Source: Telmatospirillum siberiense
Lineage (GTDB): Bacteria > Pseudomonadota > Alphaproteobacteria > Rhodospirillales > Magnetospirillaceae
Direction: 5' to 3'
Assembly: GCF_002845745.1 (NCBI RefSeq)
Contig: NZ_PIUM01000003.1
Location: 124,001 to 188,000 of the forward strand
DNA: 64,000 nucleotides
Part shown: one piece after another, positions 36,981 to 55,836 of the stretch
Layout of the letters: the number at the start of each line of letters is the position of its first letter
How positions within the stretch are numbered: position 1 is the stretch's first letter
Made by a program: the position numbers and the translations under genes
Notes under the pieces: model-generated
Told to the model about the DNA's origin: nothing
Databases searched by the model: none
What the model saw: only the letters and a program-made list of their open reading frames with translations

Positions 36981-37288
36981 TACGTCCTCAGGCTGATTTA
37001 AATGATGGCTGGTGACTTTAGGGAAGGAAGCGCGCCTCCGCAATCGCCTTCGGTACAAATGTGATGATTGCCGGGCCGGCGCATTGCGCGGGCCCCGTCC
37101 GCAGCAGGGCAATCGGGTGAACCCGCTTGCCCTGGTTTAAATTCTTGCCCCTCAGACGCCGGGCGGCGGACATCCGTCCGCCGCTTGCGGGATTGAAGAG
37201 AAGATTCGACACTTCCACAACACTCAATCCCCCTGGCAAGATTCGAGCTATCGTATTAAACAATGCCCCTCACCTCCTCATCGGAAGG
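36981..37288. promoter_or_regulatory. Divergent proS / purQ intergenic region
   Basis: These 308 bases contain at least two small hairpins: GGGCAA...TTGCCC near 37107-37132 and GCGGAC...GTCCGC near 37172-37188. Both promoters should lie here. No purS gene was found in any frame, although purS commonly precedes purQ. A minus-strand open frame (37018-37263) lacks protein-like composition. Confidence 0.4.
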
Positions 37289-37987
37289 ATGAAGTCCTTG
37301 AAAGCCGCCGTCATCGTCTTCCCCGGCTCCAACTGCGACCGCGATGTCGCGGTGGCCCTTGAAGCCGCAATGAATCATCCCCCCATCATGGTCTGGCACC
37401 GCGACACCGAACTGCCCCCGGTCGATCTGGTGGTGGTGCCGGGCGGGTTCTCCTACGGAGACTATCTGCGCTGCGGGGCCATGGCGGCGCATTCGCCGAT
37501 CATGCGGGAGGTCAAAGCCAAGGCGGAGAGCGGCACACCGGTGCTGGGCATCTGCAACGGCTTTCAGATCCTGACCGAAACCGGCTTGCTCCCGGGGGCG
37601 CTGATCCGCAACGCCGGACTGAAATTCATCTGCAAGGACGTTTTTCTGCGCGTCGAAACGTCGGACAGCCCCTTCACCCGGAAATATGAAACCGGCTCCG
37701 TCGTGCGGCTCCCCATCGCCCATGCCGAGGGAAACTATTTCGCCGACACCGCCACCCTCGATCGCCTGGAGGGCGAGGGACGCGTCGCCTTCCGCTATGT
37801 GACGCAGGGCGGCGGAGCGAGCCTGGACGCCAACCCCAACGGCGCGGCCCGCAACATCGCCGGCATCTTCAACGAGAACCGGCGGGTGCTGGGCCTGATG
37901 CCGCACCCCGAACGCCTGGCCGAAGACCTGTTGGGCGGTACCGACGGAAAACCGATGTTCGAAGGCCTGGTGGAGGCATTGTCGTGA
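37289..37987 (+). CDS. purQ: FGAM synthase glutaminase subunit PurQ
   Basis: PurQ supplies ammonia from glutamine to PurL in purine synthesis (FGAR to FGAM). The 232-residue class I amidotransferase shows the nucleophile Cys in GICNGFQIL and the His-Glu pair in PHPER. Start: the ATG at 37289 has its GGAAGG directly adjacent with no spacing. The TTG at 37298 has the same Shine-Dalgarno at a normal distance and gives the canonical N-terminus [15 protein letters not shown], so it may be the true start. The stop overlaps the GTG of purL. Confidence 0.96.
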
Positions 37988-40209
37988 GCAGCAGCACCCT
38001 ATCGCCCATCACACCGGATGTGATCAAAGCCCACGGCCTGACCGACGATGAATATCGGCAGGTGCAAGATATCATGGGACGCGACCCCAACATCACCGAA
38101 CTCGGCATTTTCTCGGTGATGTGGTCCGAGCACTGTTCCTATAAAAGCTCGAAGAAGTGGCTGAAGACGCTGCCGACCACGGCCCCCTGGGTGATCTGCG
38201 GTCCCGGCGAGAACGCCGGCGTCATCGACATCGGCGACGGACAGGCCGCCATCTTCAAGATGGAAAGCCACAATCATCCGAGCTTCATCGAGCCCTATCA
38301 GGGCGCGGCTACCGGCGTCGGCGGAATTCTGCGCGACGTCTTCACCATGGGTGCCCGGCCCATCGCCAATCTGAACGCGCTCCGCTTCGGCGATCCCAGC
38401 CATCCGAAGACCCGGCATCTGGTGTCGGGCGTGGTTGCCGGCGTCGGCGGCTACGGCAATTGCGTGGGCGTCCCGACGGTGGGCGGAGAGACCAATTTCC
38501 ACGCCTCCTACAACGGCAATATCCTGGTCAATGCGATGACCGTGGGCCTGGCCCAGACCGACCGCATTTTCTATTCCGCGGCTGCCGGCATCGGCAATCC
38601 GGTGGTCTATGTCGGATCGAAGACCGGGCGCGACGGCATCCATGGGGCCACCATGGCCTCGGCCGAATTCTCCGAGGATTCGGAAGAAAAGCGTCCCACC
38701 GTCCAGGTCGGCGACCCCTTCACCGAAAAACTGCTGATCGAAGCCTGCCTGGAACTGATGGCCACCGATTCGATCGTCGCCATCCAGGACATGGGCGCCG
38801 CCGGCCTTACCTCCTCTTCCTTCGAGATGGCATCGAAGGGTGGGCTCGGCATCGAGATGGATCTCGACGCCGTGCCGATCCGCGAAGTCGGGATGACGCC
38901 CTACGAGATCATGCTCTCCGAAAGCCAGGAGCGCATGCTGATGGTCCTCAAACCCGGACTTGAGGGCAAGGCGCGGGCCATCTTCGAGAAATGGGAGCTG
39001 GATTTCGCCGTCATCGGCCATTTGACCGACAACGGGCGCATGGTGCTGAAACATCATGGCGAGGTGGTCGCGGACCTGCCGATCGACCCGCTGGCCAAGG
39101 CCAGCCCCGAATATGACCGGCCCTGGGTGCCGGGGACCAAACGCCCGGTTCTCGATCCGGCGAGCGTCCCGGCCCATCCGCCGATCGACGCCCTCAAGGT
39201 TCTGCTTTCAAGCCCCGATCTGGCTTCCAAGCGCTGGATCTACGAGCAATACGACCACATGGTGATGAACGACACCGTGCAGCGGCCGGGCGGCGACGCC
39301 GGAGTGGTGCGCGTGCATGGCACGAAAAAGGCACTGGCGCTGGTCACCGACTGCACGCCGCGCTACTGCCTGGCCGACCCGCGCGAGGGGGGACGCCAAG
39401 CGGTGGCCGAAGCCTATCGCAATCTGTCGGCGGTCGGCGCCCGGCCGCTCGCCGTCACCGACAATCTGAATTTCGGCAACCCCGAAAAACCGGAGATCAT
39501 GGGCCAGATCGTCGAAGCCATCCAAGGCATGGGCGAGGCCTGCCGTTCCCTGGATTTCCCGGTCGTTTCGGGCAATGTCTCGCTCTACAACGAGACCAAT
39601 GGCGTGGCCATTCTGCCGACCCCCGCCATCGGCGCCGTCGGCCTGATCGAGGATGTGGCGAAGATCGCCTCGCTACCCTTCAAGGAAGCCGGTGAGAGCA
39701 TTTTCGTCCTCGGCGAGACCAAGGGATGGCTGGGCTCCTCGCTCTATCTGCGCGAACTGTGCGGCCGCGAGGATGGCGCTCCGCCGCCGGTGGCCCTGCA
39801 CCGTGAAAAGCGGGAAGGCGAATTCGTCCGCCGGCTGATCGGCGAAGGCGAGGTTACCGCCGTTCATGATGTGTCGGATGGCGGGCTTCTGGTGGCCGTC
39901 GCCGAGATGGCCATGGCCTCCGGGATCGGCGCCACCGTCACCGCGCCGCAAGGCGTGCCGCTGCACGCCTGGTGCTTTGGCGAAGACCAGGGCCGCTACG
40001 TGTTGACGGCCCCCTCCTCCCTGGTGGCCGCCATTCTGGAGGCCGCCCAGCGCGCCGAGATTTCCGCCCGCGTCATCGGAACGACCGGTGGCGGAGACTT
40101 GACTCTGAACGGCTCGGGCGCCATCTCCGTTGCAGAGCTGAAACGGCTGAACGAGGCCTGGCTGCCGGACTTCATGGCGGCGACGGCGGAGAGCGGCGGG
40201 GAAGCGTAA
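37984..40209 (+). CDS. purL: FGAM synthase subunit PurL (small type)
   Basis: PurL is the ATP-dependent synthase subunit converting FGAR to FGAM together with PurQ and PurS. The 741-residue length is that of the small PurL, which requires separate PurS and PurQ. Visible motifs include [22 protein letters not shown] and the tandem AIRS-type domains. The GTG start overlaps the purQ stop, so the two are coupled. No purS is present next to this pair. Confidence 0.97.
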
Positions 40210-49193: not shown

Positions 49194-49844
49194 TTATTTA
49201 ATACACCCAAGATCCGCTAACGCAGCCCTAAGATTTACCTCAAACAATCGAAAAGATTCCGCTCGCCGAAGGCTGTCAACTGACTGCCTTTGAGCGATAG
49301 CTGAAAATACTTGCTGCACGTTTACAGCACGATGCCTACCTCTAACAATTTTCAGAGCGCGCTCCAAGACCTGTTTTGGATCAACGAGTCTCTCCGCGGC
49401 AGTGGCGGTGATAGGCAGTTCTAGTGACTCAGCAGATCCAGAGTACCCGAGTGCGGAAGTGACTGCATCTGGGTCTGCAAGTATCCAAGCTTCTGTTTCG
49501 TGACGTGGGGAGATCGCCACGCACCGAACAAGAGGGAATTTAAATTTAAGATACATGGCTGTACAGTATGCGCACGAGCGCATTTCCATCCCCCCCTCGA
49601 GTAGACGCCCCCCCGTATCAGCATGAATAAAGACTATCTTAAAAGCGTCTCTGGCGCTGAACGCCTCTTCAGCAACATCATTAATTGTTGAACGTGTCAA
49701 TAATACAGACGGCGTATCAGGAATAATTGATGAGCATATGCCATCAACAAGTACAATTTCTTCCATAATTTTTGGAAGGAGCACTTCAAAATACGCTCTA
49801 TCCGTCGCCCCTTCATATAGGGCTGCCCAACTCACGTAATTCAT
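49194..49844 (-). CDS. DUF4276-like putative nuclease/TOPRIM-fold protein of a defence pair
   Basis: The 216-residue protein begins with YEGATDRAYFEVLLPKI, like the Glu-containing EGxTE motif of TOPRIM-type proteins. It has VFIHADTGG, a plausible acidic motif, and SPRHETEAWILADPDAV, which matches the ExEAWxLAD signature of the DUF4276/RloB-like group. It is coupled to the upstream ATPase by a 4-base ATGA overlap. The gene is clearly AT-richer than its flanks, a sign of transfer. Such pairs act in phage exclusion in known cases, with the TOPRIM-like protein as the toxic effector. Exact system assignment is not possible from sequence alone. Confidence 0.75.
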   Translation of the reverse strand: MNYVSWAALYEGATDRAYFEVLLPKIMEEIVLVDGICSSIIPDTPSVLLTRSTINDVAEEAFSARDAFKIVFIHADTGGRLLEGGMEMRSCAYCTAMYLKFKFPLVRCVAISPRHETEAWILADPDAVTSALGYSGSAESLELPITATAAERLVDPKQVLERALKIVRGRHRAVNVQQVFSAIAQRQSVDSLRRAESFRLFEVNLRAALADLGCIK

Positions 49845-51175
49845 GCCGCATCTGTCGGATGCTGGAGCAGCCTTTCAGCTTCAAACCTTGAAAGACGCGT
49901 CTCCGGATTAAGTAAATCCCCAGTCGGGTCAATACCTGTCCGCATTCGCGTTCGTGTTGTTCGGGCACGCGTTGTCGGGTCAATCGTTATTACACTGTCC
50001 GCAACTATAATCTCATCATCTCTAAGTACAGCCATAACTTTTGGGGAGTGTGTATTAATCAAAATCTGAAATGATGCGGTAGATGGCTCAGTAGAGGCGT
50101 GAGCTGCACTGCGCAGAAAATCTACAAGCATAGGTATGCGCCCTTCATGCACACCATTTTCCGGCTCCTCAAAACATAACGTACCACGCCTTGCCGGATC
50201 ATTTAGAACTGTAAGCAAAGAAAGTAGCCGTAAAGTGCCATCAGAAATAACCCTAGAACTAAAAACTTGATTACCAACAAATTCTATACTAAATGAATAC
50301 TGTCTTTGATTCGGATCATTTTTTACATCGAGACCACTTACTGATGGTATAAGCGATGCAAGATCGCTGCTAATATCAGACAGGACGCCATTTGGCCTAG
50401 TTTCTGTCGCAGTTTCATCTTTTAATCGCGCCAAGACAGCCGATAGGTTCGATGCATCTGGTTTCAATGCTCGATCCTCGAACCTGTCGTTTGCACTCCT
50501 CGCTGCTCTGGGGTTAATCTCAAGAAACCTCATACTCGCAAGCATCTCTCGAAGGGCATAAAGATGAGGAAACTCAGCCGTAGCGATCGTTGAAAGCGCG
50601 GTACGAGACGCCTCTTTGAGAGAAAGCTGCATTGGCCGACCATGTTTCTGCCGACCATCCTGCCTCACTACAATCGCATCACGATCATCATTGATCCGTA
50701 TGAATGGATTAACGCGGGCATTGTAAGTGACTTCAGATTTACGAAAAAACGTGGCCCGATCATCTTTTTTTGAGATTGGGGCACAAAATTCTTCGCGGAC
50801 AAACACGCCGCGCGGCATGTCATCTGCACCAAGAATTAACCCGAGCTTCAATTCATAACGAAGACGACGTGCTGGTATTTCATAAGTTGTTCCGAAAGCA
50901 TCCACTCCCTTACGACTCAGTAAAACCTCTATCGCAAAAGACATGCAATCAGAAATTCCAGAAGGCGTTTTTCGAAAAAGCTCCTCTGGCTCCCCTCGTA
51001 AATCTTGCATTGCAGTACGTATGTCATGCTGAGCAAGAAGGGATAGAAATCGGAGAGCATCGAATAAGTTCGATTTTCCGCTTGCATTTGGCCCGACCAC
51101 GGCCGATAGAGGGCGGAGATCTAAACCAAAATTTTCAAACGTCTTAAAGCCGTCTATTTCGATTCGTGTCAGCAT
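49841..51175 (-). CDS. AAA/ABC-type ATPase of a defence pair
   Basis: This 444-residue ATPase is related to RecF/OLD-type AAA_21 proteins: N-terminal GFKTFENFGLDL, Walker A VGPNASGKSN (about residues 28-36), ABC-like signature SDGTLRLLSLL, Walker B with FEEPENGVHEGRI (about 337), and switch His in INTHSPKVMAVL (about 375). Such ATPases sense phage proteins or DNA and control a partner effector. It is co-translated with the DUF4276-like gene and low in GC. No integrase, tRNA or clear attachment site flanks the pair. Confidence 0.85.
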   Translation of the reverse strand: MLTRIEIDGFKTFENFGLDLRPLSAVVGPNASGKSNLFDALRFLSLLAQHDIRTAMQDLRGEPEELFRKTPSGISDCMSFAIEVLLSRKGVDAFGTTYEIPARRLRYELKLGLILGADDMPRGVFVREEFCAPISKKDDRATFFRKSEVTYNARVNPFIRINDDRDAIVVRQDGRQKHGRPMQLSLKEASRTALSTIATAEFPHLYALREMLASMRFLEINPRAARSANDRFEDRALKPDASNLSAVLARLKDETATETRPNGVLSDISSDLASLIPSVSGLDVKNDPNQRQYSFSIEFVGNQVFSSRVISDGTLRLLSLLTVLNDPARRGTLCFEEPENGVHEGRIPMLVDFLRSAAHASTEPSTASFQILINTHSPKVMAVLRDDEIIVADSVITIDPTTRARTTRTRMRTGIDPTGDLLNPETRLSRFEAERLLQHPTDAA

Positions 51176-52615: not shown

Positions 52616-52718
52616 CGTGACATACCTCCCCCTTATTATTATCAACCGTAGCTTGAGACGGCGCGGGGAGGTCTGTCAAATAACCATGTTAAAATGTGTG
52701 ATTTAGCGGATGTCCAGG

Positions 52719-52816
52719 GTTTCGCCCCACGCTCCCCTGCGGGGAGCGACCCTTTCGTTCCGCCGTTTGCCACATGTAAACGTCGTTTCGATCCACGCTC
52801 CCCTGTGGGGAGCGAC
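52719..52816 (-). CRISPR. Minimal type I-C CRISPR array: two repeats, one spacer
   Basis: Two 32-base repeats (52719-52750 and 52785-52816) flank one 34-base spacer (52751-52784). Read on the minus strand they start GTCGCTCCCC and end CGAAAC with the palindromic CTCCCC/GGGGAG core, the type I-C form. The distal repeat differs from the proximal one at three positions, as terminal repeats often do. Orientation follows cas3. No leader is present, because the cas5 stub directly precedes the first repeat. No further repeat was seen on either side. Confidence 0.88.
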
Positions 52817-52954
52817 CTTCCAATGAATGGCTTCCAGGATGCCCCGCGCGGCGGAGGGCGTCATGACGTCGTAGGACACCCGCTCGACCTTCATTTCCGG
52901 CCGCGTGAACAGGGCGTGATCACCGGATACCAAGAGTCTGATGCCATGCGGCAT
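52817..52954 (-). pseudogene. cas5c: Truncated cas5 (type I-C, Cas5c/Cas5d) stub
   Basis: The first 46 codons match the start of Cas5c, with [20 protein letters not shown] and [16 protein letters not shown]. The normal protein is about 220 residues. After codon 46 the frame runs without a stop into the CRISPR repeat-spacer-repeat and ends at 52703, giving an 83-residue chimera. A GGGGGA Shine-Dalgarno precedes the ATG and the start is 11 bases after the cas3 stop, the usual cas3-cas5 spacing. Everything normally between cas5 and the array (cas8c, cas7, cas4, cas1, cas2, leader) is missing. It cannot make a Cascade subunit or process crRNA. Confidence 0.88.
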
Positions 52955-52965
52955 GGGCTATCCCC

Positions 52966-55182
52966 CTAAAAAATCGTATTTTCCAAAACATCCGCGTTTT
53001 CCCAGACCAAGCCGACTTCCGGCTGGTAGAGGCTCGAATCGGTCAGCACGGCGAACTGCTCCCCCCACAGGTCGGACCGAAGGAACGCCACCCGTCCATT
53101 GGCCAGCAGGGCGGCGCGATCCCTGGGCGGTACCTGAACGATGAAGGATTGCAAATCGCGGGCGGCCTTGCCGGGAGAGGCATCCGGCGAATTCAGGCGG
53201 TCCAGCACCGGCCGCACATGGTCGCCGTCATCGATGATCACCGGGACCAGACCGCTTTCGATCATCCGGAAATCGGCCGCCGCCGTCCGATAGTTGAACA
53301 TCGTTTGTCCGTCGCTCAGCGAGAACTGTCCCAGGATCTTCTTTTCATCCAGTTGCCCCGCCCCCTTGCGCCAGAAGACCTCCTTGAAATAGGCCCGCAT
53401 GGCGTCCGGCGACAAAAGGTCGTCATGGGATTCCGCCATCCGGGCGAAATCGGCGGCCAGTTGCGCGACTTCGCCCGGCGGCGGATTGTCCTTGGCCTTG
53501 AAAACAGTAACGATGCTCTGCTCGATGGGCCGCCCGCCCTCGCGATTGCACCGTCCGGCGGCCTGGGCAATTTGGTCCAGCCCGGCCTCCGCCCGCCAGA
53601 CGCATGGAAAATCGACGTCGACCCCCGCCTCGATCAGCGACGTGGCGATCAGACGGCAGGGTTTTCCGTTCTCCAGATCCGTCCTGACCCGCTCCAGAAT
53701 TCGGCGCCTGTGGACGGCATATTGACGTGTGGTCAGATGGACGAGGCCGTCCAGACCGGCCTGCCCGGCCTGCCGATACAGTCGCAGGGCATGTCTGCGG
53801 CTGTTGACGATGACCAGGGCCTGATGGTGATCGCGCAAGGCGTCGACCAGCGCATCGTCATCCAGGACATGGCCCTTGGAAATCCGGACCCGTCTGAGTT
53901 TTTGCGACAGGGCCTTGGGGTCGGGAGCGAGTTCCCGCCCCTCCAGTTCCAAACCGCCATGTTTGAAGTCACGGACGTCCAGCGCGGGTTGCGTGGCCGT
54001 ACACAAAATGATCGTCGCGCCGTAGTGTCGCGCCAGTTCGTCCAGCGCCGCCAGACAGGGGCGCAGAAGCTTCAGCGGCAAGGTCTGCGCCTCATCGAGA
54101 ATGATGACGCTGTTGGCCAGATTGTGCAGCTTGCGGCACCGCGAGGGACGATTGCCGAACAGGCTTTCGAACAACTGCACATTGGTGGTGACCACCACCG
54201 GCGCGGCCCAATCCTCCATGGCCCGCTTCAGCTTATCCCGCCGTTCTCTTTCCTGAAATTTTTCCTCGTCGATGGAGGAATGGTGTTCGAGAACGACATC
54301 ATCCCCAAGCACAGAGCGGAAAATGGCGGCGTTCTGGTCGATGATCGAGGTGAAGGGAATGGCGTAGACGATCCGCCGCAGATTGTGCGCCTTGGCATGA
54401 TCGAGCGCGAATCCCAGCGAAGCCAGGGTCTTGCCGCCCCCCGTCGGCACCGTCAGGGTGAACAGGCCCTTCCCGTCCGAGGCCCGGCCACGGACATGCG
54501 TCAGGATCTCGTCGCGCAGGACATTGACATTGCTGACGGCGGCCTTCTTTCGCTTGTCCGCCATGTAGGCGTCGAAGCGACCGATCAGAACGTCGATTTC
54601 CGCGCGCAAATCCGGCCAGTCGCGATCGGCGTCCGGCGTGTAAAAGCCCTCGGTGTCCTTGAAGTCGGCATCGACGAGGCAGGAAAACAGCATCCGTCCG
54701 AGAAAGGACAGTTGAAAGGCGCAGGTCTCTCTCGATATTTGCGACGGCTTGATCGCCGCCGGCCACAAAGGCCCGACATCGATATCGATTTCCTGCCGCC
54801 AGATTTCATCGATCGGCTCTACGGATTTGCCGAGCCTATCCAGCAAGACGTCCTTATCCGCCAGCCCCGCATGATGCCCGGCGATGGCATAGGAGACGAG
54901 CTGCGCGGCAACCTGATCGAAGCCATCGGCGGCCAGCGTCAGGATTTCCCTGGCCCCGGCGGTGGAATGATCGACCGGATCCGCCGCCCCCATGAGGCGC
55001 GCCTGGAATTTTCTGGAGTATTTACCCAAATCATGCAGAAGACCGGCGATCCTGGCGGCATTCTCACCGCCAAATTCCGCAGCGAACCGCGAAGCCCTTG
55101 TCCCGGTCGCCGTAAGATGATTGCGAAGCCTGTGCCATTTTTCCTGGCTATCGTCGTCAGCAAGACTGTGCGCGAAATACAT
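52966..55182 (-). CDS. cas3: CRISPR-associated helicase/nuclease Cas3 (type I-C)
   Basis: Cas3 is the effector that unwinds and degrades DNA once Cascade has bound a target. The 738-residue protein appears complete: an N-terminal HD nuclease (LLHDLGKYSRKF, His-Asp near residues 50-51, and DHSTAGAREIL), then an SF2 helicase with Walker A TVPTGGGKTLAS (about 245), DExx box VILDEAQTLP (about 365), and motif III LCTATQPAL. It has no Cascade to recruit it, so interference in this locus is not possible unless another type I-C system exists elsewhere. It is divergent from the higA remnant. Confidence 0.94.
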   Translation of the reverse strand: MYFAHSLADDDSQEKWHRLRNHLTATGTRASRFAAEFGGENAARIAGLLHDLGKYSRKFQARLMGAADPVDHSTAGAREILTLAADGFDQVAAQLVSYAIAGHHAGLADKDVLLDRLGKSVEPIDEIWRQEIDIDVGPLWPAAIKPSQISRETCAFQLSFLGRMLFSCLVDADFKDTEGFYTPDADRDWPDLRAEIDVLIGRFDAYMADKRKKAAVSNVNVLRDEILTHVRGRASDGKGLFTLTVPTGGGKTLASLGFALDHAKAHNLRRIVYAIPFTSIIDQNAAIFRSVLGDDVVLEHHSSIDEEKFQERERRDKLKRAMEDWAAPVVVTTNVQLFESLFGNRPSRCRKLHNLANSVIILDEAQTLPLKLLRPCLAALDELARHYGATIILCTATQPALDVRDFKHGGLELEGRELAPDPKALSQKLRRVRISKGHVLDDDALVDALRDHHQALVIVNSRRHALRLYRQAGQAGLDGLVHLTTRQYAVHRRRILERVRTDLENGKPCRLIATSLIEAGVDVDFPCVWRAEAGLDQIAQAAGRCNREGGRPIEQSIVTVFKAKDNPPPGEVAQLAADFARMAESHDDLLSPDAMRAYFKEVFWRKGAGQLDEKKILGQFSLSDGQTMFNYRTAAADFRMIESGLVPVIIDDGDHVRPVLDRLNSPDASPGKAARDLQSFIVQVPPRDRAALLANGRVAFLRSDLWGEQFAVLTDSSLYQPEVGLVWENADVLENTIF

Positions 55183-55361: not shown

Positions 55362-55836
55362 GTGGTGCAAGATCAGCCGGAGTCGGAAACAACGGAGCAA
55401 ACAGAAAGGATTACCGAGAACAGCCCATTTGACGCCACGGTGTCGCATGCATGGCGGGCTTTCCGGGCATCGTCGCCCGTGCGGATCGCGCCGCCCCGTT
55501 CCGAAGCGGAATACTCGGCGCTGACCGCGCTCATGAATGATCTTCTGGACGAAATCGGTGACGATGAAGGACATGAAGATGTCGATCTGCTCGATTTGGT
55601 GTCGGCCCTGGTCGAGGCTTAGTGAGAGAGAGAATATTGAAATCCCGGACGCGCCGCCGGCGGATGTTCTGGCCTTCCTGATGCGCGAACATGACTTGAA
55701 GCAAAGCGATTTGCGCACCGAATTCGGCACACAGTCGGTCGTCAGCGAGGTTCTGCGCGGCAAACGCAACATCACGGCGGCGCAGGCGAAAGCATTGGGC
55801 AATCGTTTTGCCGTGTCGCCGGCCGCCTTTTTGTAA
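55362..55836 (+). pseudogene. Frameshifted HigA-like antitoxin / HTH regulator
   Basis: Two overlapping frames together encode a HigA-type protein. The first (55362-55622) has RSEAEYSALTALMNDLLDEI and DLLDLVSALVEA. The second continues ERENIEIPDAPPADVLAFL and the HTH region REHDLKQSDLRTEFGTQ, then VVSEVLRGKRNITAAQAKAL. Removing one G at about 55622 would join them as EAYERENIEIPD, which matches the family's linker pattern. The intact protein would be about 157 residues. So it is a single-base-insertion pseudogene, a sequencing error or, less likely, a programmed frameshift. No cognate toxin is adjacent. Confidence 0.8.

Follow-up and report, generated by a model that had tools for sequence, protein, structure and literature searches.

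Type I-C CRISPR-Cas loci in relatives of Telmatospirillum siberiense (G004, G023, G074, and G262) have the order cas3-cas5c-cas8c-cas7-cas4-cas1-cas2-array. Incomplete type I loci have been described before. Zhang and Ye (2017, PMC5294841) put isolated type I cas loci at 12% (11% in the abstract), read them as remnants or as loci with another function, and characterize them as having at least three cas genes and no array nearby. Loss of cas operons under self-targeting, with repair at microhomology, has been reported (PMC3630108, PMC6990116), and for orphan I-F arrays with cas-matching spacers it was proposed that targeting of the cell's own cas genes deletes them (Vercoe et al. 2013, PMC3630108). 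Annotations of “orphan Cas3” are reported to include other helicases (PMC10333696).

The locus described here lies in a window of 64,000 nucleotides, the whole stretch of T. siberiense DNA that was analysed, and is very probably what one deletion left of a type I-C CRISPR-Cas locus, with a Cas3 that now has no recruiter. Like the type I-C loci of the relatives it has cas3 followed by cas5 and a 32-nt repeat of the same family; unlike in them, its cas5 breaks off at codon 46, cas8c, cas7, and cas1 are lacking, and a single spacer stands against the 24 (with 25 repeats) of the G004 array. It resembles the isolated loci of Zhang and Ye (2017, PMC5294841) in being incomplete and probably nonfunctional, and differs from them, as they are characterized there, in consisting of one whole cas gene beside a two-repeat array. 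No literature title was found that dealt with a lone, intact Cas3 of type I-C next to a cas5 stub, which does not prove that none exists. The locus is probably a fresh example of a known phenomenon, the collapsed type I-C locus.

Anatomy of the locus

Table 1. Features of the remnant and its surroundings (positions in the window)
Feature	Position	Strand	Basis or remark
Two-gene pair, AAA ATPase and 216-aa partner	49194-51175	-	Profile matches
I-C CRISPR repeat 2, 32 nt	52719-52750	-	Three differences from repeat 1
Only spacer, 34 nt	52751-52784	-	Between the two repeats
I-C CRISPR repeat 1, 32 nt	52785-52816	-	First base directly after cas5 codon 46
cas5c stub, first 46 codons	52817-52954	-	Cas5d/Cas5c profiles, relatives
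cas3 (type I-C), HD nuclease and helicase, 738 aa	52966-55182	-	Intact ORF and profile matches
Pair of short, overlapping frames, upstream of cas3	55362-55836	+	HTH_3 match

Reading of the cas3 ORF revealed no internal stops or frameshifts. Its product matches the PADLOC Cas3c profile over residues 2-728 (E 7.8e-218), which identifies the I-C kind of Cas3, scores over the cut-off with both NCBIfam cas3_core and cas3_HD, and matches two PDB chains named Cas3 (8zns, E 2.2e-124; 8g9u, E 3.3e-120). It is 60-63% identical to the Cas3 of G004, G074, G066, and G023. A different helicase mis-annotated as “orphan Cas3” is excluded, because the product has an HD domain and scores as Cas3c, and because a cas5 stub follows the gene.

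Eleven bases separate the end of cas3 from the cas5c frame. The stub ORF (52703-52954), whose frame stays open across both repeats as far as the stop at 52703, matches Pfam Cas_Cas5d (E 4.6e-14, residues 5-45) and PADLOC Cas5c (E 1.4e-22, residues 5-47), and comparison with eight relatives places the end of cas5 homology at residue 46, where the repeat starts. The two repeats and one spacer together span 52719-52816, with an 8-bp stem perfect in both repeats. That they are I-C repeats and did not arise by chance follows from their membership of the family common to seven relatives with I-C loci, and they are located after cas3-cas5. Spacers in these seven relatives are 32-38 nt long. Repeat 2 is probably the terminal (trailer-end) repeat of the array, because the 3' part of the last repeat, or of a repeat-like piece just beyond it, is worn in four of the seven relatives. 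No protospacer was found in viral_contigs with a 35-base pattern (three repeat bases, without the last two spacer bases) or with exact spacer pieces of 22 and 23 bases, nor in phage records by blastn with a 261-base query; across five genomes of the genus, with up to three mismatches, the sole match to the spacer was the array itself.

A preliminary description of this DNA had given the segment as a full-length cas3, 46 codons of cas5c, and two repeats with one spacer. These elements are confirmed by the stop-free cas3 with its nearly end-to-end Cas3c match, by the point at which cas5 homology ends, and by the I-C-family repeats, and the span then given, 52703-55182, runs exactly from the end of the stub frame to the start of cas3.

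On the far side of the array stands the two-gene pair, which looks like a candidate defence pair near the remnant: its AAA ATPase matches PADLOC HEC-01A (E 2.5e-151) and, below the cut-off, MADS3, and the partner has a weak MADS4 match, also below the cut-off. The two short frames upstream of cas3 match HTH_3 below its own cut-off (E 7.2e-4) and gave no NCBIfam match; they resemble an antitoxin-type HTH gene split by a frameshift, presumably HigA-like.

Missing partners and the extent of the probable deletion

The genome comprises 6,200,830 bases in 81 contigs, with a listed completeness of 100 and contamination of 0.19. It holds one match to Cas3, the gene at the locus, and one to Cas5d, the stub; the Cas5d profile is covered there just over positions 2-52 of 217, and full-length Cas5c is absent from the genome. 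Cas8c, the signature large subunit (PF09709), Cas7 (PF05107), Cas1 (PF01867, matched in 25 of 61 genomes), and Cas6 (PF10040) have no match in the genome. These null results, with Cas5d represented by the stub alone, reject a Cascade encoded elsewhere in the assembly for the families covered (Cas3, Cas5d, Cas8c, PF05107 Cas7, Cas1, and PF10040 Cas6). The repeat pattern, allowing up to three mismatches, occurs twice in the genome, both times at the locus. What is left is partial cas genes in operon order, with the searched partners missing from the genome.

Among 297 genomes searched for Cas3 (E 1e-60 or better), T. siberiense included, 25 were positive, again including our own. Cas8c is present in all 24 of the others, and in 23 of these the fetched stretch has cas5 beside cas3. 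The exception, G066 (L046), has its cas3 on a contig of 3,706 bases (G066:C134) that ends 222 bases past the gene in non-cas5 sequence. In G066:C134 3500-3706, after cas3 and up to the contig end, there is much inverted, repeat-like sequence, and a dispersed repeat may lie between cas3 and cas5. We rejected G066 as a second lone Cas3, its Cas8c lying near the start of another contig (from base 620); the gap most likely reflects a broken assembly or inserted DNA. T. siberiense is the only one of the 25 Cas3-positive genomes without Cas8c.

The preliminary description had held that one deletion removed cas8c through the leader and most of the array, had called retention of Cas3 without its Cascade unusual, and had proposed a genome-wide search for cas8c, cas7, and cas1 together with a comparison against full-locus relatives. 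Both were carried out as reported above: the deletion is supported, although that it was a single event is something we infer, and a Cas3 lacking Cas8c is indeed confined to one genome of 25.

The deletion would have begun at cas5 codon 47 and ended where the penultimate repeat starts, taking with it the rest of cas5, cas8c, cas7, cas4, cas1, cas2, the leader, and the remaining array. The loss likely amounted to about 6.5-9 kb, because in six relatives about 6.5-9.0 kb (hand-read positions) separate cas5 codon 46 from the array end. Cas5c is the enzyme that cuts the repeats in type I-C systems. Without Cas5c, Cas8c, and Cas7 the making and loading of crRNA would be impossible, as would spacer addition without Cas1. 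Because the crRNA, Cascade, and adaptation functions are gone, Cas3 would have no recruiter and the locus would be dead as immunity, with Cas3 presumably idling.

Apart from cas genes, no gene of our window turned up within the 20 kb surrounding the G004 locus, and a transporter gene neighbouring the remnant matched our genome alone among five genomes of the genus (E 1e-60). A scan of genome contigs yielded one relative only. In G001 (L040, G001:C75, 8015-13362) a different I-C locus, with a Cas3 50% identical to ours, directly adjoins genes 87% identical to positions 37127-40209 of the window, which we take to be purQ and purL. Since that segment stands ∼13 kb from the remnant, the I-C loci of G001 and T. 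siberiense occupy different sites. Two further loci showed interrupted genes: the G008 Cas3 match (L010, G008:C59:26847-28970) has one internal TGA, and a second Cas8c copy in G073 (G073:C2:1011613-1013390) has three in-frame TGA.

Intactness of Cas3 and age of the loss

The preliminary description's statement that the orphan Cas3 still looks intact is borne out: 98 residues are the same in all of 21 relatives, and the only Cas3 in the genome keeps every one of them, also within the HD, Walker A, DEAQ, and motif VI stretches (alignment of 22 sequences; G073, G241, and G064, partial or divergent, were left out of the 25 matches). In a substitution-only simulation of neutral change, the share of runs with the same outcome (0/98 and no stop) fell from 29% at 0.5% divergence to 8% at 1%, 2.4% at 1.5%, and 0.6% at 2%, giving an interpolated limit of ∼1.2% neutral divergence. 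The same 0/98 is seen in five intact relatives and is therefore equally expected of a Cas3 still under selection. Among the nine closest Cas3 sequences, ours departs from the rest at 13 of 251 positions that are otherwise invariant, where the corresponding counts for the others are 1 to 41; this is more than five of the others and fewer than three, and tracks its own divergence. The intact Cas3 indicates either little neutral time (about 1.2% divergence or less) or continued selection.

The cas5 stub is likewise unspoilt, with no change at the 18 positions on which 21 relatives agree (of 24 other genomes; L046, L059, and L060 gave no ungapped row). This is weak evidence that the loss is not old, fitting recency, because 18 unselected codons stay unchanged in 14% of runs at 5% divergence (63% at 1.2%).

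Selection may have kept Cas3 for a Cascade-free role, such as DNA repair or DNA degradation, or for use with a mobile or variable Cascade, a reading that we consider improbable. Apart from the unchanged invariant residues and catalytic stretches, it can draw on pairwise dN/dS values of about 0.22-0.34 for cas3 against five relatives (dN 0.32-0.36, dS 1.04-1.46), which show constraint over the whole history of the gene. However, with dS above 1, nearly all of that history predates the deletion, and the ratio is silent on the time since. Nor was a lone-Cas3 lineage seen, T. siberiense alone among the 25 having this arrangement, and recruitment by Cascade is reported as the normal trigger of Cas3 action (PMC11417383). 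We prefer recent loss to continued selection because it needs no extra assumption.

An assembly error, in which the cell does have the block from cas8c to the array and it was omitted or joined elsewhere, is highly improbable even though repeat arrays can collapse in short-read assemblies and this one is in 81 contigs. A misjoin would leave the unique genes cas8c, cas7, and cas1 at some other place in the assembly, where there are none; the listed completeness is 100%; and the site, at ∼177 kb of a 319-kb contig and with ∼140 kb or more on each side, lies too far inside for a contig end to be the cause of the missing genes.

The junction at the repeat edge

Taking the locus as a deletion remnant, the junction lies between 52816 and 52817, where cas5 codon 46 meets the first base of repeat 1. 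The codon after 46 begins with C in eight relatives and the repeat supplies a G at this place in T. siberiense; because this G replaces the C, cas5 ends exactly at the repeat start and the junction falls exactly on the repeat boundary. For a 66-base repeat-spacer unit, the chance that a random break falls at the repeat edge is ∼1 in 66, a figure computed post hoc.

Such a position might suggest that the operon removed itself, although we regard this as doubtful. The array would have taken a spacer from cas5, followed by recombination with cas5, or there would have been an integrase-type strand transfer at the repeat edge. If a spacer derived from cas5 recombined with that gene, everything between them would be deleted and cas5 would be fused to the repeat at the spacer end, and Cas1-Cas2 strand transfer at the repeat edge would be expected to give the same junction. 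The type I-C PAM is reported to be TTC in Xanthomonas (PMC8406640). No TTC stands 5' of the would-be cas5 protospacer at any spacer length from 31 to 39 (TCC at 36, CTC at 37), and recombination between spacer and cas5 is therefore unsupported by the PAM. As in the reported losses under self-targeting (PMC3630108, PMC6990116), a cas operon has been deleted here; unlike the arrays described by Vercoe et al. (2013, PMC3630108), this one has no cas-matching spacer, and the hint consists in the position of the junction, with a negative PAM result.

Apart from the junction at the repeat edge, its one oddity, the locus looks like a dead remnant of the ordinary sort. It offers a clean and probably young snapshot of the death of a type I-C system, in which the nuclease-helicase is whole and the guide complex and adaptation genes are gone. 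If the operon did remove itself, the junction would preserve, as a fossil, the killing of a locus by immunity turned on itself, and breaks at repeat edges in other collapsed loci at a frequency above ∼1 in 66 would indicate that CRISPR arrays take part in their own loss.
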